Origin: an uncultured Chthoniobacter sp. | GTDB taxonomy: Bacteria; Verrucomicrobiota; Verrucomicrobiia; Chthoniobacterales; Chthoniobacteraceae | Assembly: GCA_903874975.1 (NCBI GenBank) | Contig: CAIQUL010000332.1 | Span: forward strand, 1 to 43,977 | Length of the DNA: 43,977 nucleotides | Direction: 5' to 3' | In this document: piece by piece, positions 6,969 through 43,977 of the stretch | Position numbering within the stretch: position 1 is the first letter of the stretch | Layout: the number at the start of each line of letters is the position of its first letter | Notes under the pieces: model-generated | Told to the model about the DNA's origin: nothing | The model's input: the letters and a program-made list of their open reading frames with translations, nothing else | Databases searched by the model: none | Position numbers and translations under genes: made by a program

Positions 6969-8381
6969 TCAGGCCACGATCTCGCGGATGACGTTCCCGT
7001 GCACATCGGTGAGCCGCAGGTCCCGGCCGCCCCAGCGGAAGGTGAGGCGTTCGTGGTCGATGCCGAGCTGGTGCAGGACGGTGGCCCAGAGGTCGTACAC
7101 GGTGCTGACGTTGGTGACGGCGCGGTAGCCGAATTCATCGGTGGCCCCGTAGGCGACGCCGCCTTTGATGCCACCGCCGGCGAGCCATGCGCTGAATCCG
7201 AAAGGATTGTGATCGCGACCGTTGCCGCCTTGCGAGAATGGCGTGCGCCCGAATTCTCCGGCGAAAACGATGAGCGTCTCATCGAGCAATCCGCGATCCT
7301 TGAGATCGCCCATGAGGGCAGCGATGGGGGCGTCCACCTGCGCGGCCATGGCTCCGTGGCCCCTGTGAATTTCGCCGTGCTGGTCCCATGGGTTTTCGGG
7401 ACCGCCCTCGCCGATGCCCACGCTGCAGCACGAGAGTTCGACAAAACGCACCCCGCGCTCGACGAGCCGGCGGGCCATCAGGCACTGGCGGGCATAATCA
7501 GCGTGGACCGCGTTCGGGCTATCCACGCCGTAGCGCTTCCTGGTGGTCGCGGATTCCGAAGTGATGTCGGTCAGCTCGGGCACTGCCTCCTGCATGAGGA
7601 AAGCAGTCTCCGCATTCGCGACCGAAGCCATGACGGCATCTTGGGCCGCGACGCGATCGGCGAAGCCACGGTCGAGTTTTCCGATGAGGTCCAAGGAGCG
7701 GCGCTGCTCAGCCTTCAGCATGGCGGGCGTGATGTCTGGCACGGCCTGGTTGTTCGAGAGGTTAAAGATGGAGCCTTGGTTGGTGGCGGGGAGGAAGGCA
7801 TTGCCGAACATGCTCACGCCTCCGACGGGGGTGACGGCCTTCTTTGACTGGAGCACGATGTAGCCGGGAAGGTTCGGGTTCATCGTCCCGCACCCATAAT
7901 TCACCCACGCTCCCGCGCTCGGATAACCGAGAAAGGGAAAGCCCGTGTGCAAGAAAAAGTTGCCCGTCGCGTGCTCGCTGAACTTCGCGTTCAACGAGCG
8001 GATGATCGCGAGGTCGTCGGCCCGCTCCGCGATCTTTGGAAACATGTTGGTCATCTCCAGGCCGGACTGCCCGTATTTCGCCATCTCCCACGGCGAGGCC
8101 ATGATGTTGCCGTTGTTGTCAAACTGGGTGCGCTCGATGGCGACCGGCATGGGCTGGCCGTGGCGCTGCTTGAGCATCGGCTTGGGGTCGAAGGAGTCCA
8201 CATGCGAGAAGCCGCCGGACATGAAGAGGAAGATCACCGACTTCGCGCGCGGCCTGTGGTGCAGCTTTGGCCGGGACGATGCCGCTTCGGCGGAATTGAT
8301 CAGGCTCGAAAGAGCATACGCGCTGACGCCGCGGGAGGTTAGTTTGAGGAATTCGCGGCGGCTGTGCGGGGTAATGGACAT
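6969..8381 (-). CDS. DUF1501 protein, Tat-exported, duplicate copy A
   Basis: The 470-residue product opens with a twin-arginine signal (SRREFLKLT at residues 7-15, followed by a hydrophobic stretch to about 33). DUF1501 hallmarks follow: [23 protein letters not shown], then [57 protein letters not shown] and [18 protein letters not shown]. The fold belongs to the alkaline phosphatase/sulfatase superfamily, but activity is undemonstrated and I make no claim of sulfatase action. It is near-identical in length and sequence to the gene immediately upstream (8536-9948), so this is a tandem duplication. Both probably belong to one transcript headed by the PSD1 gene. Expected location: periplasm or cell surface after Tat export. 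Confidence 0.92.
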
Positions 8382-8535: not shown

Positions 8536-9948
8536 TCAAGCGATGAGGCTCTTCCACACGTTCCCATGCACGTCGGTCAGCCGCAGGTCGCGGCCGCTCC
8601 AGCGGTAGGTGAGGCGTTCGTGGTCGATGCCGAGTTGGTGCAGGACGGTGGCCCAGAGATCGTACACGGTGCTGACATTGGTGACGGCGCGGTAACCGAG
8701 TTCGTCGGTGGCTCCGTAGGCGACGCCGCCTTTGATGCCTCCGCCAGCGAGCCAGAGGCTGAAACCGAAAGGGTCGTGGTCGCGACCGTTGCCGCCTTGC
8801 GAGAACGGTGTGCGTCCGAATTCCCCGGTGAAAACGATCAGGGTATCCTCCAGCATCCCGCGGTCCTTGAGGTCGCCGATGAGCGCGGCGATGGGGCCGT
8901 CGATCTGTTCGCCCATGGCTCCGTGGCCTTTTTTCAAATCGCCGTGCTGGTCCCACGGGTTGGCGGCACCGCCAGCGCCGATGTTCACGGTGCAGCATGA
9001 GAGTTCGACAAAGCGCACGCCGCGCTCGACGAGCCGGCGGGCCATCAGGCACTGGCGGGCATATTCAGCGTGGACCGCGTTCGAGCTGTCCACGCCATAA
9101 CGCTTCTTGGTGGCGTCGGATTCGGACGAAATGTCGGTCAGCTCCGGCACCGCTGCCTGCATGCGGAACGCGGTCTCCGCATTCGCGACCGAAGCCATCA
9201 CCGCGTCCCTGGCGGCCACGCGATCGGCAAAGCCTCGGTCGAGTTTCCCGATGAGGTCCAAGGAGCGGCGCTGCTCGACCTCGATCATGGCTGGCGTAAT
9301 GTCGGGCACGGCCTGGTTGTCCGAGATGTTAAAGATCGAGCCCTGATGGATCGCGGGGAGGAAGGCATTGCCGAAAAGACTCACGCCGCCGTGCGGGATG
9401 GCGGCCTGCTTTGACCGGAGCACGATGTAACCGGGAAGGTTCGGGTTTTCCGTGCCGCACCCATAGCTCACCCATGCTCCGGCGCTCGGGTAGCCGAGAA
9501 AGGGAAAGCCGGTGTGCATGAAAAAGTTGCCCTGCGCGTGCTCGCTGAACTTCGCGGTCATCGAGCGGACGATCGCGAGGTCGTCGGCGCGCTCCGCGAT
9601 CTTCGGCAGCATGTTAGTCATCTCGAGGCCCGACTTCCCGTATTTCCCGATCTCCCACGGCGAGGCCATAATGTTGCCGTTGTTGTCAAATTGCGTGCGT
9701 TCCACTGGGACGGGCATGGGTTGGCCGTGGCGCTGCTTGAGCAGCGGCTTGGGATCGAAGGTATCCACATGCGAGATGCCGCCGGACATGTAGAGAAAGA
9801 TCACCGACTTCGCGCGCGGCTTGTGATGCAGCCGCGGCAGGGGCGAGGCAGTGCCGGCGGCGTTGACCAGGCTGGAGAGGGCAAAGGCGCTGACTCCGCG
9901 GGAGGTCAGCTTGAGAAATTCGCGGCGGCTGTGCTGGCTAATGGACAT
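8536..9948 (-). CDS. DUF1501 protein, Tat-exported, duplicate copy B
   Basis: The 470 residues are collinear, without visible gaps, with the downstream copy A. The Tat signal is SRREFLKLT at 7-15, and the same conserved blocks are present ([59 protein letters not shown] at the C-terminus). The start overlaps the stop of the upstream PSD1 gene by 11 bp, so it is the translationally coupled partner and copy A is the added duplicate. Differences are scattered substitutions (for example near the signal cleavage region and in the segment after [10 protein letters not shown]). In PVC genomes DUF1501 and PSD1 genes occur as neighbouring pairs, and the products may form one complex (inference). Confidence 0.92.
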
Positions 9949-12900
9949 AGATCAGTTCCTTCGAGTTGAGAATGGCGTGGGCGATGCGGAAGTAAGGATC
10001 ACCGGCATTCTTGCCCCCGGCTTCTGAGGGAGCGGATGCGCCGTTGATGAATTCGAGGCACGCGGCGGCCTCGGCCGGTGTCGGAGGCCGGGCGTAGGCT
10101 TGCTTGAAGATGGCATCGATCTTGGCTTCGGGCGTGGCGAACGCGCTGTTATCGCGCACGCGCTGCGCCCACTGCCGCGCCGCGTCACCGACGATCTTCC
10201 CGTTCATCAGCGTGAGCGCCTGGGCGGGGACGTTGGTGGAGTTGCGCACGCCGGTCGTCGAGGTCGGGATCGGGAGGTTGAAGGAGGTGAGGAAGCCATT
10301 GAGGCTGTTGCGTGGCATCGGAGTAAAGACGGCGCGCTTCGGCACTTCGTTGGCGGCGACAAAGCGGATGCCGTCGAGGATGGCTTCGGCATCCAGACGG
10401 CGCGGGGTGAAGTAAGCCAGCCGCAGGTTTTCCTGATCCTTGTCGCCATTGGCGGCGGGCGGTGCGCTGGCGGAGCGAAAGGCGCGACTCATCACGAGGC
10501 CGCGCACGAACTTCTTCATCGACCAGCCGCTGCCGCGGAAGTCGGCGGCGAGGTAATCGAGGAGCTGTGGGTGCGTGGGTTCGCTGCCGAGTCGGCCAAA
10601 GTTATCCGTCGAAGCTACAATCCCGCGCCCGAAGGTGTGATGCCACAGGCGGTTCACGAGCACCCGCGCGGTGAGTGGGTTGCGCTCGGCGAGAACGTCG
10701 TTCGCCAGTTCCATCCGCCCGCTTCCCGTCTTCGGATAAGGCTGGCCGCGGAAGACCTCCAGGAAGCCGCGCGGCACCGGTGCCTCCTCCTTCTTGTAAT
10801 CCCCGCGCACCAGCATCGGCTGATTCCACACCTCGCCCTCCATGACGCCCGGCGCGCGCGTCGGAATCCGGATCTCGCTTTCAAGCTTCCGATAAGTCTC
10901 CACGAGCGACTTCAGGTTCGCCGGCAATGCCGCGGCGTTATTGGCTAGGAAGCCCTGACTGGCAAACGCATCGAGAAGCTGGGCCTGGGGATCGGTCATG
11001 CCTCCCTTCTGCCAGGCGGAGATCGCACCGCGCAGTGCCTCGCGGTAGAAAACGAGGAGCGATGCGCGGTCGGTGATCTTGTCAGTCCCGGGCAAGGCCG
11101 CAATCGGCGCACCCAACTCCCGCATCCCTTCATTCCCCGCGTAGGCCTCCAGCAGACCGAACCACGAGCGTCCATCCCCCGTAGCCGTGGGGTTGTCGGC
11201 CGAGGTGTGGATATGGAAGAAGCCTTTCTCGCCGTTCCAATAGGCATACTTGCCCATGCCGACCCATCCTGGCGTGGGGTTCACCTTTGCCGATGGGTGG
11301 AGCAAGCCATTCTCCAGCGGATAGCTGCGGGCGCTAAAGCGCACGACGGCCTTTTCGCCGAATGCGCGGAGGGCCGCACTCTTGCCGGCGGCTTTGTGAA
11401 AGACCGAGCTGAGCACGCCGCTGTGTTTTTGCGAAATCAGGTGCGAGTAGATGCCCGCCGGGTAGATCCCGGTGAAAACCTTCCCACCCTCCGCCGCCAG
11501 CGCGAACGACCCCGCCGGGCTGACTTTCGCCCCGAGCCCGTTGCCACTGCGGGACCACCGGTCGAATGTCGCCTGGTCGCGCAAGTCCGCGTAGAACGTC
11601 GCGTTTTTCTTCGCCTGCTCGTTGTGCGCGCGGCCCGCCTCAAGCGCGGTCCGCAACGCGTCCAACTGCTTCTTGATGTCGGCGGGTTCGAGTTTCTGCA
11701 GCTTGGCCCACGCGCCCAGCGGATGCTTTTCGTCGATCTTTCCGAGGTCGGCTTTTTCCAGCAGACCCATCGCCGCATCCACCTCGCCGAGCCACTGCGC
11801 GGCGAATCCACTGCGGATCTCACCCTTGAGCTTCTCGATCTCGGCCCGGTGGAGGTTCTGCCGCTCGGGCGAGTCCACATTCACCGTCGCGGGACGGCTG
11901 CTCACCATGATGCCGTAGAACTTGTAGAAGTCCGCCTGGCTGATGGGATCGAACTTGTGGTTGTGGCAGCGGGCGCACGAGACCGTCATCCCGAGCATGG
12001 CTTTCGTGACCACGTCGATCTGGTTGTCGGTAAAAGTAATCTGCTCGTCGTAGGCATCCGTCACGCCGAAGCCATGCGGGACCATGCGCAGATGCGCGGG
12101 GCCGATGGCGGATTCATTGATGCCCAACTCCGCGTTGATCCGCGGCTTGGGCAAAAGGTCGCCCGCCAGATGTTCGCGGATGAGCTGGTCGCCGGGCACG
12201 TCGGCATTGAAGGCGCGGATGAGATATTCGCGGTATTGCTGCGCATGCGGAATGGCGGGGTCACTTTCGCTGCCGTGGGACTCGGCGTAGCGATACCAAT
12301 CCATCCAGTAACGCGCCCACCGCTCGCCATAACGAGGCGAAGCCAGCAGGCCATCCACCAGCGCGGTGTAAGCCGCCTCCGTGGGCTGCGCCACAAAAGC
12401 CGCCACCACCTCGGGCGTCGGCGGCAGGCCGGTGACGATGAGATGCAGCCGCCGCACCAGCGTGCCCGGATCGGCCACCGGCGCGGGCTGCAAGCCGTTC
12501 GCCTTCAGCCCCGCGAAGAGGAAACGATCAATCGCCCCGCCATTCCACGCCGCGTCCTCCGCGCGCGGCGGCTCCGTTTTCACCACCGGCTGAAACGCCC
12601 ACCACTGCGCGCGCCGGTCGCGCATCGCGCTCCAATCCATCTGCCCCGCCAGCTCTGCCTTTGTCGGTTTCGCCACCCGCGGATCGGGCGCACCCATGGC
12701 GATCCACTCCTCGAGATGCTTGATGCTGAGGTTGGAAAGTTTCGGCGCCTTCGAGGGCATCGGGTCATAGTCTCCCAAGTGCTTCACCGCAAGGATCAGC
12801 GGGCTCTTCGCGGGATCGCCGGGGATGACCACCTTTGCCAGCACCCCGCCGCGATAATCCAGCGCGAGGTCGCCCTTCATTTTGTCGATGCTGTTGTGGC

Positions 12901-13039
12901 ACGAGTAGCAGTGCTCCGCCAAAATCGGCCGCACCTTCGCCTCGAAAAACTCCCGCTGCGCCGGGGTGATCTCTTGCGCACCGACGAGGGCCAGTGAGGT
13001 GATGAACAGGAAGGTTGAGACGAAAAGTGTGCGCGTCAT
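9938..13039 (-). CDS. PSD1/DUF1549/DUF1553 planctomycete-type cytochrome c protein
   Basis: With the ATG at 13037-13039 the product is 1,033 residues and begins with a Sec signal ([18 protein letters not shown]). A farther ATG at 13085-13087 would only lengthen the leader. Domains in order: an N-terminal cytochrome c-like motif CYSCH at 44-48; DUF1549 beginning near [14 protein letters not shown] and containing a second CxxCH (CARCH) followed by [13 protein letters not shown]; a middle beta-rich insertion; and DUF1553 with [22 protein letters not shown] and the GFLTSFNLP region. The family is exported in PVC bacteria and may bind haem at CxxCH, but the reaction is unknown. The stop overlaps the DUF1501 start by 11 bp, the standard pairing. 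A conserved C-terminal motif [10 protein letters not shown] closes the protein, as is typical of the family. Confidence 0.9.
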
Positions 13040-13159
13040 GGAAATGAAAGGGTCGGAGAATCTGCGGAGTGCGAGCATGCGACTCATGCTTCAGTTCGGG
13101 TGATCGAAAAGTGCGGAAAATCTTAGGAGGCTGTGGAAAAGCGATGCGCGCCGGTGTTC

Positions 13160-28208: not shown

Positions 28209-28487
28209 TTAGTTGATGTGCTTGGAGACGAGTTTCGTCATCTCGAACATGGAAACCTGCTTCTTGCCGCCGAAGACAACTTTCAACGCGTCGTCCGCAT
28301 TGATCATCGTCCGCTTCTTGGCGTCCTGAAGGTTATTCTTCTTGATGTAGTCCCAGAGCCGCTTGGTGAGTTCACCGCGAGGTCCTGCTTTTGGTCCGAC
28401 GACCGCGCTCAGCACGGCATCGGGTTGAACCGGCTTCATGAGCGCGGCGTTCGGTTTGCGTTTGGTGGGTGTTTTTGCTGTAGGCAT
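28209..28487 (-). CDS. Stand-alone SWIB/MDM2 domain protein
   Basis: The 92-residue product starts at the ATG at 28485-28487 (MPTAKTPTKRKPNAALMKP). The open frame extends upstream but that part is not protein-like. A basic N-terminal tail (about 1-17) precedes the SWIB fold: PDAVLSAVVG, GELTKRLWDYIKKNNLQD, KKRTMINADDALKVVFGGKKQVSMFEMTKLVSKHI. SWIB domains belong to eukaryotic chromatin remodellers. Bacterial single-domain versions are known mainly in Chlamydiae and Verrucomicrobiota, sometimes fused to topoisomerase I. A nucleoid or DNA-topology role is inferred. It is a single-gene unit with its own terminator. Confidence 0.92.
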   Translation of the reverse strand: MPTAKTPTKRKPNAALMKPVQPDAVLSAVVGPKAGPRGELTKRLWDYIKKNNLQDAKKRTMINADDALKVVFGGKKQVSMFEMTKLVSKHIN

Positions 28488-28770
28488 CCGGCGATAAAGG
28501 GTGAAACGCAGTGCCTGCTCAAGAAGAATCACTGGGAGAAAGGAAATTCTTTGGGTCAGGTGTCGCGGTGCAATCCGCATGATTTCGTACCCCGGAAGTG
28601 TCCGCGCAGCGCCGGCAGCCAGTTTCCGCGGCGCGGGTGGAGCAGTGCGGAGCGGGGAGGCCTCGGGAGCCCGCACGGATCGCGCGGAGTTCGGCGCGAG
28701 AGTTTCGGCAAAAAAGGGGTTGCCGAGTGGCGGCCGCTGAGGCATTCATTCCGCCCCGCAAGCGAAAATT

Positions 28771-28993: not shown

Positions 28994-30454
28994 TCATCCG
29001 TGGTTGGTGGCTCCCGGATTCGGGTCGGACGGCTCCGGCAGGAACAAGGCGAACACTGCCGCTGGCACGAAGAGGAAGCCCACGTAAAAGAGGGTCGTGC
29101 GAAAATTTCCATCCTGAGTGATCTGCGCGGCGAAAATGGTGCCAACGGCGGCGGCGATGCGTCCGATGTTGTAGCAGAAACCCGCGCCGGTGGTGCGCAG
29201 CAGCGTGGGGAACAGCGGCGGCAGGAGCATGGTGAACAGGCCGAACACGCCGGACCAGAAACCCACCGCCGGCAGCCAGAAGCGCGTCAAGGAGTGCAGT
29301 GAATGTTCCTGCCCGAAGGTCAGCATCATCGAGATGAAGAAGCCCATGAACATGGCGATCAGCGTGCGGCGCCAGCCGAACTTTCGCACCAGCGCACCCG
29401 CGAGGAAATTGCCCGTGACGCTGATGCCGATGATGAGCGCGAACGTCGTGGCGACCAGGGTGTCGCGCTGTGCCCCGTCCATCGCGACGACCTCCGGAAG
29501 GCTGCGGACGTGTTGCGCCTGCCAGAACATGAAAGCCCACCATGCCGTGAGCGAACAGGCGCACACGCCGATGCTCAGGAAAGTGATCCGCCGCGTGGCC
29601 GGGCCGAACAGTTCGAGCACGCCCGGGGTTTTCTGGCCGCTGGCCTTGGCCGCGTGCCACGCCTCCGGCTCGGGCACATGACGCCGAATCCAGAACACCA
29701 GCAGCGCGGGCACCACGCCGATGAGGAAAATCCAGCGCGGGTGATGTCCGCCGAGCAGGATGCCTGCAAGGCACGCGAGGAGCACGCCGAGGTTCACGGC
29801 GGTCTGGAGCACCGCCGCCGTCCAGGGCCGCCATTTCTTCGGCCACGTTTCCGCCAGCAGTGTGGAGCCGACGGCCCATTCGCCGCCGATGCCCAGCGCG
29901 GCGAGGAAACGAAAGATGAGCAGGTGCCACCACGTTTCCGCGAAGAAGGACAGCCCGGTGAAGGTCGCGTAGGTCAGCACGGTGAAACTCAGGGCGCGGG
30001 CGCGGCCCAGCACGTCGCCCAGTCGCCCAAAGAATGCGCCGCCCAGCGCCCAGCCAACGAGGAACGCCGCCTGAATCCATGAGCTTTTCTGTTTCACCTC
30101 GTGGCTGCCGGTCTGCGATTTGGCGAGAAACACCTCCAGCTCGTCGCGCGAAATGCCGCCGTCCTTGTTCTTATCCGCCGCCGCCAGCGGTTCAGCGCGC
30201 TGCCATTCGGCGGCGGAGATGGTTGCATCCCGGTTGGTGTCCAGCCTGGCGAACTCGCCGCGAAAGTCCGCGCCGAAAATGAGGATGGCCACAAACGCCG
30301 TGGCCACCAGCGTGTAGATGTGCATGTCCAACCCGTCGAACAGCCAGCCCAGCCACGCGGCGAGGCCGGAGCGCCGTTGTTGCGGGGAAAGCTCGCGCAG
30401 CGTTTCCGCTTCGCGCGCGGGCGCGGACGGTGTCGGGTCGGAAGGGGAATGCAC
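28994..30454 (-). CDS. MFS transporter with two EF-hands in first periplasmic loop
   Basis: The 486-residue product is a metabolite:H+ symporter-like MFS protein with twelve predicted helices. TM1 is about 33-60 (LGWLFDGLDMHIYTLVATAFVAILIF). Helix 2 runs through WIQAAFLVGWALGGAFFG and is followed by the cytoplasmic motif A variant GRLGDVLGRARAL (about 143-155). Between TM1 and TM2, where MFS proteins normally have a short periplasmic loop, lie two canonical 12-residue EF-hand loops: D72-x-N-x-D-x-T...E83 and D94-x-N-x-D-x-G...E105. Both have all ligand positions filled. Calcium gating or Ca2+-dependent stability is therefore an inference with direct sequence support. The substrate is unknown; relatives carry organic acids or sugars. 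The gene follows the dehydrogenase/PSD1/DUF1501/SDR run, 147 bp after the SDR stop. Confidence 0.88.
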   Translation of the reverse strand: MHSPSDPTPSAPAREAETLRELSPQQRRSGLAAWLGWLFDGLDMHIYTLVATAFVAILIFGADFRGEFARLDTNRDATISAAEWQRAEPLAAADKNKDGGISRDELEVFLAKSQTGSHEVKQKSSWIQAAFLVGWALGGAFFGRLGDVLGRARALSFTVLTYATFTGLSFFAETWWHLLIFRFLAALGIGGEWAVGSTLLAETWPKKWRPWTAAVLQTAVNLGVLLACLAGILLGGHHPRWIFLIGVVPALLVFWIRRHVPEPEAWHAAKASGQKTPGVLELFGPATRRITFLSIGVCACSLTAWWAFMFWQAQHVRSLPEVVAMDGAQRDTLVATTFALIIGISVTGNFLAGALVRKFGWRRTLIAMFMGFFISMMLTFGQEHSLHSLTRFWLPAVGFWSGVFGLFTMLLPPLFPTLLRTTGAGFCYNIGRIAAAVGTIFAAQITQDGNFRTTLFYVGFLFVPAAVFALFLPEPSDPNPGATNHG

Positions 30455-30601: not shown

Positions 30602-31294
30602 TCAGCGCGGGCGGATGGTCAACTCCTCGATGATCGCCCGCGGGGGAAGCTGGATCGCGAGGAGGACGCAGGCGGCGATGTCCTCGGGTTGGAGCATTTG
30701 CGCACGGGCGGCGGCATCGGGCGGGGTGGGGCGATGCACGAGGATGGGTGTGTCGATGTCGCCGGGGAAGATGCCGCAGGCGCGGATGCCGTGGGCGCGC
30801 TCCTCGGCGTTGATGGCCTGGGTGAGGCCGGCCAGGCCGAACTTCGACATGGCGTAGCCGGCGCCGGCCTTGGTGTTCGCGATCTTACCGGCGTCGGAGA
30901 TGATATTGACGATCGTGCCGGAGCCGCGCGCGCGCATCGCGGGGAGAAAAGCCTGCGTGCAGTAATAGGCGCCGTGCAGGTTGGTGTTCATCATGGCGTG
31001 GTAGTCGTCGGGCTGGAGCACGGCGAGCGCGCGGGCGGGGACGTTTGTGCCCGCGGAGTTCACGAGCACGTCCACGCTGCCAAACTCGCCGAGCACACGT
31101 GCTCCCATCGCCCCGACCTGCGCGGCGTCGCCGATGTCGCACGGCACCACGAGAGCGGCGGGGAGGCTTGCGGCGACGCTTTCCAGCAGTTCACGGCGGC
31201 GTCCGACGAGTGCGACGCGCCAGCCTTGCTGCGCGAGGGCGCGGGCGGTGGCTGCACCCACTCCGCTGCCGGCTCCGGTGACGACGGCGGTCAC
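30602..31294 (-). CDS. SDR family NAD(P)-dependent oxidoreductase
   Basis: The start is GTG at 31292-31294, overlapping the DUF1501 stop as GTGA. No ATG lies near the Rossmann start and the upstream frame is the shadow of DUF1501. The 230-residue protein has the cofactor motif TGAGSGVG (about 6-13), the NSAG variant of NNAG (79-82), a catalytic Ser in IISDAGK (133), and YxxxK as YAMSK (Y147, K151). Classical SDR, cytoplasmic; it reduces or oxidises a carbonyl/alcohol substrate of unknown identity. Its tight coupling to the DUF1501/PSD1/dehydrogenase genes suggests that it acts on the product taken up or released by that exported set. Confidence 0.9.
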   Translation of the reverse strand: MTAVVTGAGSGVGAATARALAQQGWRVALVGRRRELLESVAASLPAALVVPCDIGDAAQVGAMGARVLGEFGSVDVLVNSAGTNVPARALAVLQPDDYHAMMNTNLHGAYYCTQAFLPAMRARGSGTIVNIISDAGKIANTKAGAGYAMSKFGLAGLTQAINAEERAHGIRACGIFPGDIDTPILVHRPTPPDAAARAQMLQPEDIAACVLLAIQLPPRAIIEELTIRPR

Positions 31295-32778
31295 GCGATC
31301 CAATCCTTCACCACCTTGCCGGCGACATCGGTGAGGCGGAAATCGCGACCCTGGAAGCGGTAGGTGAGTTTCAGGTGATCCATGCCGAACTGGTGCAGCA
31401 GGGTGGCGTGCAGATCGTGGATATCGACGGGGTTTTCGGCAATGCTCCAGCCGATGTCGTCGCTGGCGCCGTAGGTGAGGCCGCCTTTCAGGCCGCCGCC
31501 AGCCATGAGCATGGTGAAGGCAAAGGGATGGTGATCGCGACCGGTGTTCGACTGGCGGCCGGGGCGATTTTCGCCCAGCGGCGTGCGGCCAAATTCGCTG
31601 CCCCACACGACCATGGTGCTCTCCAGCAGGCCGCGCTGCTTCAGGTCTTTGATGAGCGCGGCGATGGGTTGATCCACGACGCCGCAGTTGTAGGCGAGGT
31701 TTCTGTCCAGGTCTTCGTGCTGATCCCAACTGGCGTGGATGATATTGATGAAGCGCACCCCGCGCTCGACCATGCGGCGGGCGAGCAGGCAGTTGCGCGC
31801 GAAGGTGTCATACGTGCGCAGGCCGGGCAGGGTGCCGCGGAGATCTTTCCCCTCCGGCTCGGGGCGATCGACCCCATACATCGCGAGGGTTTCCTTGGAC
31901 TCGCCGGCGAGGTCGATCAATTCGGGCGCGGCGGTCTGCATGCGGTTGGCGAGTTCGTAATTGGCGATGCGACTGGCGATCTCGGGATCGTGGACTTCCT
32001 GGTAACGCATCCGGTTCAGCTCGCTGAGGGTGTCGAGTCCGGCGCGCTGGAGTTCGGGCGGCAGGCCGTCCGGGTTTCTGAGGTTCAGCACGGCCTCGCC
32101 CTGGTTGCGGAAAAGCACGCCGGCATACTTGGTGGAGAGAAAGCCGGACTGCCAGAGCGAGGAGCCGCCCGAGCCGCCGCGCCCGGCGGTGAGCACCACA
32201 TAGCCGGGCAGATTCTGCGAGGCGCTGCCGAGGCCGTAGTTGATCCACGATCCCATGGACGGCATGCCAAAGCGCGACACGCCGCACTGCATGGCAAGCT
32301 GGCCGGGGTGGTGATTGAATTCCGGGCTGTGGAGCGAGCGCACCATCAGCAGGTCGTCCGCGCAGGAGCCGATCTGCGGCAGGAGATCGGAAAAATCCAT
32401 GCCGCACTGGCCGTGCTTTTTCCACGTCCGCGAGGAGCCGAGCAGCGTCGCCGAGTCGGGCTTGATAAAGGCGAAGCGCGCCTTGTCGAGCATCTCCTTG
32501 GGCAGTTTGGAGCCGTGGAGTTCGTTGAGCTTCGGCTTGGGATCGAAGAGATCCATCTGCGAAGGCGCGCCCTCCATGTAGATGAAGATGCAGGCTTTGG
32601 CCCTGGCCCGCGAGTGGCTCGTCAGCTCACCGAACTGGGCCGGATCGGCGGCGTTGGCGGCGCTAAGCACGCCATCGGCCGTGAGCATGGACCCGAGCGC
32701 GAGGCCGCCGATGCCGCTGGCGGAGGTGGTGAGAAATTCGCGGCGGGAGAGAAGGATGGATGATTCGAGTGGGGTCAT
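31291..32778 (-). CDS. DUF1501 protein, Tat-exported, third paralogue
   Basis: The 495-residue product has a twin-arginine signal (SRREFL at about 11-16, then a small-residue hydrophobic stretch to ADGVLSAANA). DUF1501 blocks: ACIFIYMEGAPSQMDLFDPKP, SRFGMPSMGSWINYGLGS, FARNCLLARRMVERGVRFINI, VWGSEFGRTPLGENR and GGGLKGGLTYGASDD. It is clearly diverged from the tandem pair at 7-10 kb and belongs to a different DUF1501 subgroup. It lies 70 bp downstream of its PSD1 partner and its stop overlaps the SDR start by 4 bp. A structural relation to the sulfatase/alkaline phosphatase fold is known for the family, but activity is not established. Confidence 0.92.
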   Translation of the reverse strand: MTPLESSILLSRREFLTTSASGIGGLALGSMLTADGVLSAANAADPAQFGELTSHSRARAKACIFIYMEGAPSQMDLFDPKPKLNELHGSKLPKEMLDKARFAFIKPDSATLLGSSRTWKKHGQCGMDFSDLLPQIGSCADDLLMVRSLHSPEFNHHPGQLAMQCGVSRFGMPSMGSWINYGLGSASQNLPGYVVLTAGRGGSGGSSLWQSGFLSTKYAGVLFRNQGEAVLNLRNPDGLPPELQRAGLDTLSELNRMRYQEVHDPEIASRIANYELANRMQTAAPELIDLAGESKETLAMYGVDRPEPEGKDLRGTLPGLRTYDTFARNCLLARRMVERGVRFINIIHASWDQHEDLDRNLAYNCGVVDQPIAALIKDLKQRGLLESTMVVWGSEFGRTPLGENRPGRQSNTGRDHHPFAFTMLMAGGGLKGGLTYGASDDIGWSIAENPVDIHDLHATLLHQFGMDHLKLTYRFQGRDFRLTDVAGKVVKDWIA

Positions 32779-32848: not shown

Positions 32849-35800
32849 TTAGCTCCGGGTTAAAAACTCATCCAAGTTCAACAGCACACGCACCGTGGCC
32901 GTCCACGCGGCAGCTTCCTCGACGGGCACGTCTTTCGGGGGATTGGTGCCGGCGAACTGCTTCGCGGCTTCGGGGTTCTTGCGATACCACTGGCGCGAGG
33001 TTTCCAGCAAACTCGTCAGCCGCTCGATCTCGGCTTTTTCCGGCTCGCGGGCGAGGCAGAGGCGGAAGGCGCGGGCGAGGCGGACGGTGTCGTTGCCGGG
33101 GCTGCCCTGTTGGATTTCCGACCACACCCTGGCCGACAAGGACTGGGCGGCTTCGGCGAAGGAGTCGTTGTTCAGGGTGATGAGCGCGGCGAGGGGCGTG
33201 TTCGACCGGCCGCGCTGCACGGTGGTGACGTTCGAGTCGGGGCAGTCGAAGGTCATCAGATTCGGGTGCGGCGCGGTGCGCTTGAAGTAGGTGTACATGC
33301 CGCGCCGGTATTTGTCTTCGCCGGGGCTGACGTTCCATTTGAAAGCCGAATTGTAATTCACGTCGGCCGCGCCGGGCGGGATGGGTGGGAAGACGCTGGG
33401 GCCGCCGACTTTGGTGCTGAGCAGGCCGGCGGCGGCGAGGGAAATGTCGCGCACGATCTCGGCCTCGACGCGGAAGCGGTTCTGCCGCGCGAGGAGGCGG
33501 TTCTTCGGGTCGATGTCGATCAGGTCGGCGCGATGAACCGAACTCCGGCGGTAGGCGGCGGACGTGACGATGGTCTTGATGAGCTTTTTGCGCGACCAGC
33601 CTTTCCCGACAAACTCGGCCGCGACCCAGTCGAGCAACTCACGATGGCTGGGACGCTCACCGCGCACGCCGAAATCGTTCAGCGTGGTGACGATGCCTTC
33701 GCCGAAAAGGTTGGCCCAGATTTCGTTGGCGACGACGCGGGGCGTGAGGGGATTCCCGCTGCTGACGAGCCAGCGGGCGAGATCGAGCCGGTCGCCGCGT
33801 TCGGCGCGGTGTTGCACGGGCGGCAGGGTGGAAAGCGTGCCGGCGGTCACGGGGTCGAGCGGCTCCTTGAACTCGCCGCGTCGCATCACGCGGGTTTCGC
33901 GACGGTCGTTGGCGCGCTCGCCGAGGACACGCACGGTCATCTCGGGTTTGGCGGGCGGTTTGTCGAAGGCCGTCAACTCGGCGACGACCGACCACGTTTT
34001 CGCATCGAGCCGCTCGAAGTGGGCGAGCAGGGCGGCGGTGTCTTCGGCTTTCCGCTGATCGGCGGGCTTGGCCAGCACCTGCCGCAGCGGGGCGGGGACG
34101 GTGAGCGGCGTCGGCGTGGTGAGGGCGCTGAGGCGGAAGCGGCCGATGGTCTGCTGCTCGCCGTAGTTCTGCACGAGCTTCACGGAAATCCCGGTCGCTT
34201 TCCCGATGGTGACCGGCTCGGCAAAGACGAACACGGCCTCGTGCGCCTGGCCGGTTTTGCCGCCGACAGCCCAGCCGTTGCCTTTGTCTGTTTTCGACTT
34301 CGCCAGCCCGTCGATGGCGAGGGCCACGTCGAACTTTGCCTGCGAAAAATCCGCCTGAGCACCGGTGAGGACGACGGGACTGCGCGGGTCGCCCGCGATG
34401 CTCAGCTCGATCTCGCTGAGGATGAAATTGCCGCCTTTCGCGCGACCGGGGCCTTTCTCCGGCAGGGCGGGATCAGTCAGCACTTCGAGCCGCAGGCCGT
34501 GGACGGTGCCGGGGCTGAGCTTGCCGGTGACCGTGTAGGTATCGGTGACGGGACTTTCGCCGCTCACGACGATGGAGCCATCCTTGTCCTGCGCCAAGGC
34601 AACCCCTTTCCCCCCGGCGAAGCCCTCCACGGCGATCGGCGCAAAGGCGGGCTGCCCAGCGGCCTCCGCGTCGGCGATCCATTTCCGGGCGCGCGTTTCC
34701 CATTCCGGCAGGCGTCCGCCAAGCTCGCGACGCGCGGCTTCGGCACGCACGCGGACGGCGTCGAAGTCCTTTTGATATTTCGCCATCGCGGTTTCCCACT
34801 GCCGCCATTTCGCCTCGGACGCGGGAACCTTGGCGGTGACCTCGTCGCCGTTATTAAAGTAAGCAAAGAGCCGATAGTATTCCTTGTGGGTGACCTCGTC
34901 GTATTTGTGCGTGTGGCAGCGGGCGCAGGTGAGGGTCAGACCCATCCAGACGGCACCCATGGTCTCGACGCGATCCATCACGGCAGCGACGCGCCACTGT
35001 TCCTGGTCCACGCCGCCCTCGGTGTTCGTCAGGGTCTGGCGGTTAAAGGCGGTGGCGAGCACCTGTTCGGGCGCGGCTTTTTCCAGCAGGTCGCCGGCGA
35101 ATTGCTCGATGGTGAAGCGGTCGAAAGGCAGGTCGCGATTGATGGCGTCGATCACCCAGTCGCGGTAGCGCCAGGCATCGGGGCGGCCATTGTCCTTTTC
35201 GAAGCCGTCACTGTCGGCGAAGCGGGCCTTGTCGAGCCAGTGGCGGCCCCAGCGCTCGCCGAAATGCGCGCTGGCGAGCAGGTCGTCGGCGAGTTTCGAC
35301 AGACCGGCCTCGCGATCAGCGGCGATCAGCGCGCGGTAACGCTCCACCTCCGCGGGAGCCGGCGGCAGGCCGAGGAGATCGTAGTAAAGGCGGCGAATGA
35401 GCGTGGTGTCATCGGCCTCGGGCGAGGGAGCGATGCCGCGCTTCTCGAGTTCGGCGAGGACGAAGGCATCGATCGGATTTTTCACCCCCGCGGCATTTTT
35501 CACCGCCGGTGCCGGAGGCTGCGCGAGATTGGCGTAGGCCCAGTGTTTCGGCCAGGTCGCGCCCTCGGCGATCCATTGTTTAAGCTTCGCCTTTTCGGTG
35601 CCGGTGAGCGGCTTGCCCTTTTTCGGCGGCGGCATGATTTCGTCCGGATCGGTCGCGTGGATGCGGGCCACCAGAGCCGACTCGTCCGGTTTCCCCGGAA
35701 CGATGCCGCGCTCGCCCGACTCGAGAACCTTCGACGCGAATTCGAGTCCCGTGAGCCGCAGGCCGCCCTTGGTGTCGTCCGGCCCGTGACAAAGCAGGCA

Positions 35801-35932
35801 TTTTTCCGAGAGGATCGGCCGGATTTCCCGATCGAAATCGATCCCGGCGGCCGAGCCCAAATGGGAACCCGCAACGCCCCCAAACAGGGACGCTGCGACG
35901 AGCATAAAGCGGTTGAGACGAGATTTGGTCAT
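32849..35932 (-). CDS. PSD1/DUF1549/DUF1553 planctomycete-type cytochrome c protein, second copy
   Basis: With the ATG at 35930-35932 the product is 1,027 residues. An ATG 66 bp upstream would add a polar leader before the signal (LNRFMLVAASLFGGVAG). The cytochrome-like CLLCH is at 45-49, with KGGLRL and a distal IMPPPKKG methionine. DUF1549 starts near PIDAFVLAELEKRGIAPSP and contains GLPPAPAEV and a second motif CARCHTHKYDEVTHKEYY. A middle domain of about 200 residues reads as beta-sandwich (TGKLSPGTVHGLRLEVLTD, NFILSEIELSIAG), a likely carbohydrate-binding module. DUF1553 (NPLTPRVVANEIWANLFGEGIV) ends the protein. The second gene of a run starting with the PVC dehydrogenase. Confidence 0.9.
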   Translation of the reverse strand: MTKSRLNRFMLVAASLFGGVAGSHLGSAAGIDFDREIRPILSEKCLLCHGPDDTKGGLRLTGLEFASKVLESGERGIVPGKPDESALVARIHATDPDEIMPPPKKGKPLTGTEKAKLKQWIAEGATWPKHWAYANLAQPPAPAVKNAAGVKNPIDAFVLAELEKRGIAPSPEADDTTLIRRLYYDLLGLPPAPAEVERYRALIAADREAGLSKLADDLLASAHFGERWGRHWLDKARFADSDGFEKDNGRPDAWRYRDWVIDAINRDLPFDRFTIEQFAGDLLEKAAPEQVLATAFNRQTLTNTEGGVDQEQWRVAAVMDRVETMGAVWMGLTLTCARCHTHKYDEVTHKEYYRLFAYFNNGDEVTAKVPASEAKWRQWETAMAKYQKDFDAVRVRAEAARRELGGRLPEWETRARKWIADAEAAGQPAFAPIAVEGFAGGKGVALAQDKDGSIVVSGESPVTDTYTVTGKLSPGTVHGLRLEVLTDPALPEKGPGRAKGGNFILSEIELSIAGDPRSPVVLTGAQADFSQAKFDVALAIDGLAKSKTDKGNGWAVGGKTGQAHEAVFVFAEPVTIGKATGISVKLVQNYGEQQTIGRFRLSALTTPTPLTVPAPLRQVLAKPADQRKAEDTAALLAHFERLDAKTWSVVAELTAFDKPPAKPEMTVRVLGERANDRRETRVMRRGEFKEPLDPVTAGTLSTLPPVQHRAERGDRLDLARWLVSSGNPLTPRVVANEIWANLFGEGIVTTLNDFGVRGERPSHRELLDWVAAEFVGKGWSRKKLIKTIVTSAAYRRSSVHRADLIDIDPKNRLLARQNRFRVEAEIVRDISLAAAGLLSTKVGGPSVFPPIPPGAADVNYNSAFKWNVSPGEDKYRRGMYTYFKRTAPHPNLMTFDCPDSNVTTVQRGRSNTPLAALITLNNDSFAEAAQSLSARVWSEIQQGSPGNDTVRLARAFRLCLAREPEKAEIERLTSLLETSRQWYRKNPEAAKQFAGTNPPKDVPVEEAAAWTATVRVLLNLDEFLTRS

Positions 35933-36040
35933 TGCTACGGAAAGTGCGCCCGGAGAGCGGCGGTGCTGGAACGTTGGAGGACGGGATTGGTCAGTCAATG
36001 GGGATCAATTCGCTCGTGCTTCCGGGTATTAGGACATCCG

Positions 36041-39043: not shown

Positions 39044-40780
39044 TTAAGCGCGGCGGCGGCGGCTGAGCATGCCAATGGCACCGACGAGCAGCAGGCCAAT
39101 CGTGCCAGGCTCGGGCACGGTGGCTCCGCCTCCGAAGCCCGCACCCTTGTCGTCGCCGCTGAAAGCACCGCTGGCCACCCCGCTGGTGAAGACCACCGTA
39201 GCGCCTGCGCCGATGGTGAGCGAGCTGAGCGTCTGGCTCACGCTGCCAAAGCGCAGCTTGGTGGGATTGCCACTAGGCGCATCGCTCACGCTCACCACGG
39301 CGTTGCCGAGCGCGCTGTTCACGTTCAGTGTGCCGTCGTTCGCCGTCAGCGTATTGAGGGTCAGGACAGCCCCAGGCGCGAGGTTCAGCACCCCACCTCC
39401 TTGCTTGACCACCGTCCCCGTAGTTGCGTTGAGGGCTCCGCCAAAGGTCGATTCCGTGGCGTCGCCCGCGGTCAGCGTGTTTGCCTGCAGATTTACGGTG
39501 CCGACGACCAAGCTGCCACCGCTGAAAGTGACCTTGGGCGTGTTGATGATAGCACCGGAAAGGTCCTTGACCGAGTCCACGGTCAGTTCGCTGGTCACGT
39601 TGAGGATGGCGCCGGCGGCGACGGTAAGCCCCGCGAAGCCGGCCGAGGTATTGGCCTTGGGGATGGTGAGCGTCGAGGTTGCGTCCAGCGACAGCGTTCC
39701 GCCGGTGGTGTTCAGGGCATCGGTGCCCGTGCTGGCGATGTTCAGGATCCGGCCGGTGACCGATACCGAACCGCTGTTGCTGAGCGTCAACTTGAAGCAG
39801 TCGGCGGTCGTACTCGTGATGGTAACGGCTTGGGAGTTGACGATCACCTTCGTGTCAAAGGTGGGAACAGCAGCCGGTACCAGATTCCAAGTGGTTGAGG
39901 TATGCCAGTCGGCGCTGGCGATGCTGGTAGCGGTGACATAATCCAACTCAATCACCGCGGACACCACGCGGAAGTGATTGGGGAACGTAAGGAGAGAACC
40001 GCTGTTGGACCAGCGGTCGCCGTCGGTGAGCCCGGTGTTGCCGGTTGATGCGTAGAGTCGTGGGCCTGTGGAGCCCAACGCACCATAGCTGCCATGGATG
40101 TTGACGTCTGAGTTGGGGATGCCGGGCTCAGAGACCGATCCATTGAACGCCTGCACGTTACGCGTGGTTCCCTCCTGATCGACGTTGCAGGCGTTCAAAA
40201 GGCCACTGGACCAAAAACCAAGGGAACTGTCGCTAATCCGCGTGGTATTCGCATCCAAGCGGAAGACAGGAATACCGTCGCTCAGCGTCATGGCCGTGTT
40301 GTCAATCCCCGTCACTCCAACGTACACGCTTCCAGGTCCCTCTGGGTAGACCCAATCAGTGTACTCGGCGGTGCCGGCGGCGACCTTCCACTCCGTACTC
40401 TTGTCTTTGACCTTGCTGCCGAGGGCGTTGGCTTCCTGGTTGGCCCAAGTGTTGTACACCGCAATGTCATTCGACACAGCGTTATGCGTGCCGTTCGTGA
40501 CAAAGGTGTAGCGAATCTTATCTCCCACCGCCCACGGGGTCGTGCCAGTCCGGTATGGGTTCGTCGTGAAGTTCAGAATGCCCCACGGGTCTACGACCCC
40601 GGCCTGTACGGAGGCGCCCGGCAGCGCGACCATAGCCAGCACTACGCAGGCCGCGATGGAGCCCACGAGGATGTGGGAGGGTTTGCTGGAACGTGAGGTC
40701 TTGGTGGTATTCATAGGATTCGAGTTGGTGTTTGGTTTGGTGAGAGTGAGGGAGTTGTTGTTGGAGGATGGAGTTTTCAT
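39044..40780 (-). CDS. PEP-CTERM surface protein
   Basis: The product is 578 residues from the first ATG; an ATG 66 bp downstream (40712-40714) gives a more typical signal peptide spacing and may be the true start. Signal: HILVGSIAACVVLAMVALPGASVQA. The N-terminal half is a beta-rich domain with WAVGDKIRYTFVTNG and few cysteines. The second half is Ser/Thr/Ala/Gly-rich beta-helix-like repeat sequence with patterns such as GSVSVTGRILNI, GGTLSLDATSTLTI and LTANDGTLNVNS. It ends in the sorting signal VPEPGTIGLLLVGAIGMLSRRRRA (VPEP, hydrophobic helix, Arg cluster). PEP-CTERM proteins are processed by exosortase and delivered to the cell surface or extracellular matrix. No exosortase gene lies in this window. 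Ligand unknown. Confidence 0.88.
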   Translation of the reverse strand: MKTPSSNNNSLTLTKPNTNSNPMNTTKTSRSSKPSHILVGSIAACVVLAMVALPGASVQAGVVDPWGILNFTTNPYRTGTTPWAVGDKIRYTFVTNGTHNAVSNDIAVYNTWANQEANALGSKVKDKSTEWKVAAGTAEYTDWVYPEGPGSVYVGVTGIDNTAMTLSDGIPVFRLDANTTRISDSSLGFWSSGLLNACNVDQEGTTRNVQAFNGSVSEPGIPNSDVNIHGSYGALGSTGPRLYASTGNTGLTDGDRWSNSGSLLTFPNHFRVVSAVIELDYVTATSIASADWHTSTTWNLVPAAVPTFDTKVIVNSQAVTITSTTADCFKLTLSNSGSVSVTGRILNIASTGTDALNTTGGTLSLDATSTLTIPKANTSAGFAGLTVAAGAILNVTSELTVDSVKDLSGAIINTPKVTFSGGSLVVGTVNLQANTLTAGDATESTFGGALNATTGTVVKQGGGVLNLAPGAVLTLNTLTANDGTLNVNSALGNAVVSVSDAPSGNPTKLRFGSVSQTLSSLTIGAGATVVFTSGVASGAFSGDDKGAGFGGGATVPEPGTIGLLLVGAIGMLSRRRRA

Positions 40781-42370: not shown

Positions 42371-43977
42371 CTAGACCGCCGCCCGGCGGCGGCGCAGCAG
42401 GAGCAGTGCGCTGGAGCTGAGCAGCAGCATCGCGGAGGTGGGTTCGGGCACGGCGGCCGTGAGCGTGACGTGGCCGGCGGCTCCCGCCTGCTCGCTGGTG
42501 AAGTTAACGCCCGCCACCAGGTCGTCGTAGTTGATCATCCAGAGATTTCCACCGAACGCCTGGGTGGAAGCGTCGGCCCAACCATCGAACGTTCCGCCAT
42601 TCCACGCGCCCGTGTAGCTGGCGATGGAAAGCTTGTCACCCACGTCCCAGAACGGGTTGGCCAGATCGGCTCCCAGCAGGTCGAGCGTTACCGTTCCGGA
42701 GATATTGAGTGAGCCCGCGATGTCGAGGAGGTCGGCGAAATTGGCATCACTGAAGGATGACTCGAAAACGAGCGTGGAGCCGGTGTTCAGATTGACCGTT
42801 CCGGTCGCCAGGCTCTCGATGGAAGTACCTGGCGAGAGTTTGCCATCCACAGTGACCACGCCGTTGATGGTGCCCGTGCCGCCGAGTGTCCCGGCGGCAC
42901 CGACGATCACAATGTTGCCACCCGTCGCCGAACCGGTCGTGTTGTTCGCCAGCAGCGTGCCGGCGCTGACCGTCGTTGTGCCAGCGTAGGTGTTCGCGCC
43001 GGAGAGCACCAGCGTGCCAGCACCCGCTTTGGTCACGGCGAGCGAAGCCGCGCCGCCTTGGGCGATGCCTCCGGTGATGTCGGTGTCGCCCGCTCCCAAC
43101 ACGGCCAGGGTTTTCGCGCCGGCCACGCCGCCACTGGCCGCGCCGGTGATATTGCCGGCCAAAATCAGCGCGGTGGCCGGGGTCGTGGCGTTGTTGGAAA
43201 TCGTGTAGGTCTGAGCGCTCCGATCGGTGCCGAGGACGACGGCGGCATTGACGACTTGGCCGTTGGTGACGGTGCTGCTGGTTGTGATGGCTCCGCCATT
43301 TTCCAAAGTGAGCGTCTGGCTGCCGACGGCGCCGCTCCCGATGGTGTAAGCGGCGGCACTGGCGGTATCGAAGAGCACCGTGTTGAGGGTGACTCCGGCA
43401 CCGAGGTTGATCGTGGTCTGTCCGCCGCCCGCGCTGTTGAAAGTGGCGGTGTGGACGTTGTTCGCCGCGCCGGGCACGGGCGAGGAACTCCAGTTCGCGT
43501 CGGCCCAAGTGGAGCCGTTCGCCCCGGTCCAAGTCGCGCCGCCTGCGGTCGAGGAAACGAGCGCGTCGATCTGACTTTTGTATGTCGGGAGGTCCATGAT
43601 CCAGCTCTCATCGCCATAAACGGAGGCGGGCAGGGGATAGACGAATGAAGCGAGGGCTTCGATCATTCCCGCGAGTTCCCATGTTGCGCTGTTTTTGTAA
43701 AAGACCGCGCCTCCGGAATCACCCGTTGCGACCTGCGCGTCGGGGGGGGTAAAATCCAAGATGAATCCTCGGAATGATCCGACTCCGAGTAGAGTTCGTG
43801 TCGTCACGCCGGTTTGAATCAGGTTCCTGCCGTAACTCTTTGTGCCGTTGGGCGACCAATAGAAGCCGGACTTCGGTCCGTATTCCGTAGAGAAAGATTG
43901 TTCTGCGGATCCGCGAATTCGACCGTAGCCAACCAGGTCAACGAGGGAGCCAATCGCCGGAGTGCTGCTGGAAACCA
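42371..43977 (-). CDS. Trypsin-like serine protease with beta-helix repeats and PEP-CTERM anchor, 5' end outside window
   Basis: The frame stays open to the window edge (last codons read VSSSTPAIGSLVDLVGYGRI toward the gene interior). The GTG at 43805-43807 is therefore not a real start. Reading 43977 to 43600 gives the C-terminal half of an S1 (trypsin) domain. VDLVGYGRI and YGRNLI lead to VATGDSGGAVF, which contains the nucleophile Ser in GDSGG (codon near 43720). The His and Asp of the triad would lie upstream, out of view. After a linker (ATWTGANGSTWADANWSS) come autotransporter-associated beta-strand repeats such as AGAGTLVLSGANTYAGTTTV and GGTGTINGVVTVDGKLSPG. The protein ends with VPEPTSAMLLLSSSALLLLRRRRAAV. 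Predicted: a secreted, exosortase-processed surface protease. Upstream partners are unseen. Confidence 0.85.
   Translation of the reverse strand, partial: VSSSTPAIGSLVDLVGYGRIRGSAEQSFSTEYGPKSGFYWSPNGTKSYGRNLIQTGVTTRTLLGVGSFRGFILDFTPPDAQVATGDSGGAVFYKNSATWELAGMIEALASFVYPLPASVYGDESWIMDLPTYKSQIDALVSSTAGGATWTGANGSTWADANWSSSPVPGAANNVHTATFNSAGGGQTTINLGAGVTLNTVLFDTASAAAYTIGSGAVGSQTLTLENGGAITTSSTVTNGQVVNAAVVLGTDRSAQTYTISNNATTPATALILAGNITGAASGGVAGAKTLAVLGAGDTDITGGIAQGGAASLAVTKAGAGTLVLSGANTYAGTTTVSAGTLLANNTTGSATGGNIVIVGAAGTLGGTGTINGVVTVDGKLSPGTSIESLATGTVNLNTGSTLVFESSFSDANFADLLDIAGSLNISGTVTLDLLGADLANPFWDVGDKLSIASYTGAWNGGTFDGWADASTQAFGGNLWMINYDDLVAGVNFTSEQAGAAGHVTLTAAVPEPTSAMLLLSSSALLLLRRRRAAV

Follow-up and report, generated by a model that had tools for sequence, protein, structure and literature searches.

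An EF-hand pair inserted between the first two transmembrane helices of a verrucomicrobial MFS permease

Can an MFS permease carry a pair of EF-hands on the outer side of its membrane domain, and what would calcium do there? The question is raised by an open reading frame on a contig of an uncultured Chthoniobacter sp. (CAIQUL010000332.1, assembly GCA_903874975.1), whose analysed stretch of 43,977 nucleotides is referred to here as the window. A preliminary description had read two canonical EF-hands in the first periplasmic loop of the encoded transporter, had called this arrangement unusual, and had suggested that transport is gated or stabilised by external Ca2+. The region that it described, 30080–30454, is indeed codons 1–125 of ORF 28994–30454 on the minus strand, with the EF-hand loops at residues 72–83 (EF1) and 94–105 (EF2). 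Sequence, conservation, phylogenetic tree, topology and structure prediction agree in placing an EF-hand pair between TM1 and TM2 of an MFS permease.

Table 1 Features of the permease gene and its insert, in window coordinates
Feature	Position	Strand	Basis
MFS permease gene with EF-hand insert	28994..30454	(-)	ORF, 486 aa, GTG start
TM1 (residues 31–58), acidic motif FDGLDMH (D40, D43)	30281..30364	(-)	AlphaFold2 helix and homologue conservation
Periplasmic loop 1 (residues 59–123) with lineage-specific insert of ~48 aa	30086..30280	(-)	comparison with short-loop homologues
EF-hand loop 1 (EF1) DTNRDATISAAE, residues 72–83	30206..30241	(-)	ligand conservation; model strand
EF-hand loop 2 (EF2) DKNKDGGISRDE, residues 94–105	30140..30175	(-)	invariant ligands; best Pfam EF-hand_5 / EF-hand_1 stretch
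TM2 (residues 124–148)	30011..30085	(-)	AlphaFold2 helix; alignment with short-loop homologues
MFS motif A GRLGDVLGRAR (residues 143–153), cytoplasmic loop 2–3	29996..30028	(-)	sequence

The protein belongs to the MFS. It exceeds the Pfam gathering scores of MFS_1 (96.2 bits; cut-off 33.4) and Sugar_tr (90.4 bits; cut-off 22.3), carries motif A in loop 2–3, and is modelled with 12 TM helices in the MFS fold. The whole model matches MFS structures with a Foldseek E-value of 1e-12, the best matches being SV2, SLC22 and hexose transporters, and SLC22 and SV2 transporters are also the best PDB matches by sequence. Among 62 homologues, the F-D-G-L and the H of the TM1 motif are invariant, the second D is present in more than 90%, and the G, D, G and R of motif A are invariant. 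The best NCBIfam matches are to the SHS (sialate:H+, TC 2.A.1.12) and AAHS (aromatic acid:H+, TC 2.A.1.15) families, at 122–129 bits; these scores lie far under the cut-offs of 418–604 bits (129 against 604, 127 against 418.6 and 122 against 552.9), and by these models the permease is hence a member of neither. A substrate could not be assigned from families, since every subfamily score falls under its cut-off; the plasmid relatives listed share at most about 34% identity and are annotated only as MFS transporter. Assignment from gene neighbours was also rejected: the neighbours in the window (SDR, DUF1501, PSD1/PSCyt, SWIB and a PPDK_N/PEP-utilizers protein) are absent beside the insert-bearing relatives, whose own neighbours differ.

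Several features of the surrounding DNA are recorded here in their own right. Directly downstream of the permease lies a gene for a SWIB/MDM2-domain protein (28209–28745, minus strand; Pfam 86.5 bits); the domain is familiar chiefly from chlamydiae and from the chromatin proteins of eukaryotes. The window contains three similar DUF1501-type ORFs (6969–8381, 8536–9948 and 31291–32778), two of them about 45% identical to the third, and large related PSD1/PSCyt-type ORFs near them (9938–13087 and 32849–35998); repeated modules of this composition are frequent in Planctomycetota and Verrucomicrobiota. PATR (autotransporter-type repeat) and PEP-CTERM proteins are encoded close together, at 42371–43807 and 39044–40780, both on the minus strand.

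Both loops have the 12-residue EF-hand form (ligands at positions 1, 3, 5, 7 by backbone, 9 and 12), with the side-chain ligand positions 1, 3, 5, 9 and 12 occupied in EF1 and EF2 alike; positions 1, 3, 5 and 12 are conserved among relatives. The insert exceeds the gathering scores of EF-hand_5 (32.2 bits; cut-off 25.9) and EF-hand_1 (26.0 bits; cut-off 25.4), and in a mixed alignment of 62 homologues, Pfam EF-hand families match each of the 11 sequences with the insert and none of the 51 without it. When the loop residues were shuffled 200,000 times, one ligand set arose in 0.03% of shuffles and two in none. On the strength of the shuffles, the EF-hand_5 score and the conservation of the ligand positions, the pair is not attributable to chance. 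The term canonical holds as far as the filled ligand positions go and fails on the strict PROSITE pattern PS00018, which each query loop misses at one position (Ala in place of Gly at position 6 of EF1; Gly at position 7 of EF2); the pattern is diagnostic and no requirement for binding. Position 6 of EF1 is Gly in nine of ten relatives, and each of the ten has at least one strict match.

Structure prediction, which the preliminary description had proposed as a check, returned an EF-hand pair whose first helix is continuous with TM1. The AlphaFold2 model, computed with 62 homologues and free of Ca2+, has a mean pLDDT of 91.2 and a pTM of 0.88, with a pLDDT of 85–97 over the insert (residue numbers of the model are one lower than those of the full protein). 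A single helix, 23–70 in model numbering, comprises TM1 and runs on into the entering helix of EF1. Strands 77–79 (EF1) and 99–101 pair as the short β-bridge usual in EF-hand pairs and, with the flanking helices, complete the paired helix-loop-helix arrangement. Modelled alone, the insert takes a like fold at lower confidence (pLDDT 68), and its best Foldseek matches in the PDB are EF-hand pairs, with a probability of 1.00 over 69 residues and E-values of only 4e-3 and above.

The side of the membrane follows from two features of the sequence. Motif A after TM2 is cytoplasmic in MFS proteins, and with the insert excluded the query has 19 Lys and Arg residues inside and 3 outside, an excess on the inside that recurs in 101 of 101 homologues counted in the same way. 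Given the position of motif A and these positive-inside counts, loop 1 is periplasmic, as had been proposed.

The search covered one genome for each of 84,980 species, together with the family, order and class of the window genome. Homologues of the permease occur mainly in Verrucomicrobiota and Planctomycetota. Only 11 distinct sequences contain the insert, namely the query and those of a second genus of the family, in which every one of the ten genomes searched has it. Judged by their titles, the insert-bearing sequences derive from metagenome-assembled genomes. The remaining homologues inspected, which reach 60% identity, have a loop 1 of ~15 residues; the arrangement is thus unusual, being confined among the inspected homologues to one small clade. 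Among the best 80 of the 183 relatives from the species-wide scan, no independent insertion was detected, nor were EF-hands found in the inspected loops of paralogous MFS proteins of the same genome. In a tree computed without the insert columns, the 11 sequences group together with a support of 100, inside a set of short-loop sequences, so the insert was gained once.

The query is the outgroup to the other ten. Within its own genus, the window genome (G000) carries the insert-bearing permease and four others (G017–G020) have a distant short-loop homologue only, a pattern that may reflect vertical descent with losses or transfer between genera. Mis-binning of the contig was rejected: the sigma-70 gene of the same contig finds its best matches in other genomes of the genus, with 81–86% identity to near-complete copies. 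A frame error or fusion artefact was likewise rejected, the same insert being in frame in ten further distinct sequences.

The insert has diverged much faster than the transporter that bears it. Its identity to the query is 25–52%, against 72–74% for the TM core, and in the closest pairs its dN/dS is 0.21–0.48, against 0.05–0.06 for the TM part. Between L58 and the beginning of TM2, only D94, N96, D98 and E105, all in EF2, are invariant in all 11 sequences; D72, D76 and E83 of EF1 are retained in 10 of 11. The eight ligand positions have a mean entropy of 0.25 bits, compared with 1.72 bits at the other insert positions (permutation p about 1e-5, a rough value as the sequences are related). The few further conserved positions are mostly hydrophobic or small (F68, W84, A93, G99 and A111). 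Judged from the alignment, the insert is looser than the transporter, yet its predicted Ca2+ ligands are held; because they are kept while their surroundings diverge quickly, Ca2+ binding has very likely been under selection.

One relative is a mosaic. The permease at L095:1444–2916 is near-identical in its TM part to those at L089:891–2327 and L090:1498–2934 (dN about 0.01), whereas in the stretch joining TM1 to TM2 the identity of its DNA to theirs drops, at sharp borders, to only about 40–63%. The longer loop of L095 retains EF2 and no longer has EF1, a hint that the protein can do without a full cooperative pair. The loop was likely exchanged by recombination; an assembly chimera is possible.

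As to where the insert came from, a profile built from it finds similar EF pairs in 79 of 388 Verrucomicrobiota genomes. Of the best matches other than the permeases, the 29 inspected are all soluble or single-TM/signal-peptide ORFs, and none is polytopic. The EF loops of the permeases are spaced 20–25 residues apart, start to start; in the secreted Verrucomicrobiota matches the spacing is mostly 21–25 residues and most often 24. Descent from a secreted Verrucomicrobiota EF-hand protein with a tightly spaced pair is the most likely origin.

What the pair does is a matter of graded expectation. The transporter probably depends on calcium outside the inner membrane or senses it. We infer both Ca2+ binding and its effect on the permease. 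Of the two effects first suggested, stabilisation by external Ca2+ can be argued with good reason and gating is possible; the computed evidence fits a structural and a regulatory Ca2+ site alike. The account that we favour, with some confidence, is that the pair was inserted once, was kept for Ca2+ binding and forms a Ca2+-stabilised periplasmic lid on TM1. On this account a tightly spaced pair, of the type common in secreted Verrucomicrobiota proteins, entered the first periplasmic loop of an MFS permease of proton-coupled type a single time. Periplasmic Ca2+ would fold it into a rigid lid at the outer end of TM1, with its acidic D-G-x-D motif, and the lid would stabilise the outer half of the permease, the surroundings of the TM1 acids, or both. 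Ca2+ should then raise transport or make it more stable; the site would be mainly structural, with activity dependent on it, and no switch answering Ca2+ signals. Against such a lid stand the query loops, slightly off consensus (Ala 6 of EF1), the absence of EF1 from L095, and the fact that the insert evolves faster than the protein around it, as a peripheral decoration would too.

Next in our ranking, and rather unlikely, comes a gate or true sensor, in which loading of the EF-hands at physiological periplasmic Ca2+ would swing the helix fused to TM1 and switch the permease on or off. The predicted continuity of TM1 with the entering helix of EF1 would supply a rigid mechanical link, and EF-hands that sense Ca2+ cooperatively are usually paired. 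No conserved docking surface is seen, however, the insert being poorly conserved beyond its ligands and the five further positions named above, and L095 has a single EF site left. In its fullest form, in which periplasmic Ca2+ switches MFS transport through the TM1-fused pair and the pair is a cassette exchangeable by recombination, such an allosteric Ca2+ input is similarly doubtful. The lid is favoured over the gate, and over the two readings that follow, because of the precedent of the STP10 Lid domain (see below) and the D-G-L-D motif of TM1.

We consider it improbable that the pair is a docking module, binding a partner protein or extracellular ligand in a Ca2+-dependent manner and affecting transport indirectly; a periplasmic binding protein, the cell wall or another EF-hand protein would be candidates. 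Peptide binding is common among EF-hand pairs, away from its ligands the insert has a rapidly diverging surface, as one adapted to a particular partner might have, and the loop of L095 was seemingly swapped while the rest of the gene stayed nearly identical; however, neighbouring genes vary between insert-bearing loci and no conserved one offers itself as a partner. Just as improbable is a neutral decoration, an EF-hand stretch that slipped into a tolerant loop and has no role in transport: homologues manage without it and its conservation falls below that of the TM core, at a dN/dS several times higher, but it is kept in ten of ten genomes of the related genus, and drift would have broken ligand sets that persist in 11 of 11 (EF2) and 10 of 11 (EF1) sequences at the significance given above.

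The locus would amount to a natural experiment in how a soluble Ca2+-binding domain is wired into the commonest transporter fold. Close permease relatives differ in whether they have the module, which was gained once and partly lost once, and the residues to mutate are well defined. Ca2+ signalling in bacteria is poorly understood, and if transport proves to be Ca2+-dependent, the permease would allow a direct test of whether periplasmic Ca2+ regulates bacterial nutrient uptake, and would serve as a template for rendering other MFS proteins Ca2+-dependent.

Among known systems, the nearest parallel to the proposed lid is the Arabidopsis sugar/H+ symporter STP10, an MFS protein in which the extracellular M1–M2 loop forms a Lid domain that isolates the M1 proton acceptor Asp42 and helps to keep the transporter active when the pH is higher (PMC6345825). 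The permease described here likewise has an extra helical domain at this loop, above an acidic residue of the first helix. The STP10 lid is a helix-helix-loop-helix with a disulfide, without EF-hand or Ca2+, whereas the permease belongs to another MFS branch and its domain is an EF-hand pair. An additional ectodomain between TM1 and TM2 is also present in SLC22 members, but it is not an EF-hand; SLC22 and SV2 proteins (OCT, OAT, URAT1 and SV2A) are the best fold matches, at about 14–20% identity. AAHS symporters share the D-G-x-D motif in TM1, and to our knowledge no EF-hand occurs in the SHS or AAHS families.

Calcium has been joined to transporters in other ways. The mitochondrial carriers SLC25A12/13/23-25 bear EF-hands on a solute carrier and show Ca2+-dependent transport; they have another carrier fold, and their EF-hands are N-terminal rather than within a loop. 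Ferroportin is an MFS protein with a Ca2+ site, and Ca2+ has been reported as required for human Fpn and, in another assay, as without effect (PMC7655804). Its site lies inside the TM bundle and is not an EF-hand, in contrast to the loop-borne pair of the permease. Secreted EF-hand proteins of Verrucomicrobiota have the same loop type as the insert and a close spacing, and the matches inspected, unlike the permease, are not polytopic. EF-hand fusions occur in bacteria, Verrucomicrobiota included, and the available part of one survey lists 7TM, sulfatase, cytochrome, thioredoxin and other partners, with MFS not named there (PMC7016017). No report of an EF-hand in an MFS loop was found in the literature searched. 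Bacterial EF-hand fusions and extra domains between TM1 and TM2 of MFS proteins were already known separately; what appears to be new is their combination, an EF-hand pair in the MFS TM1–TM2 loop.
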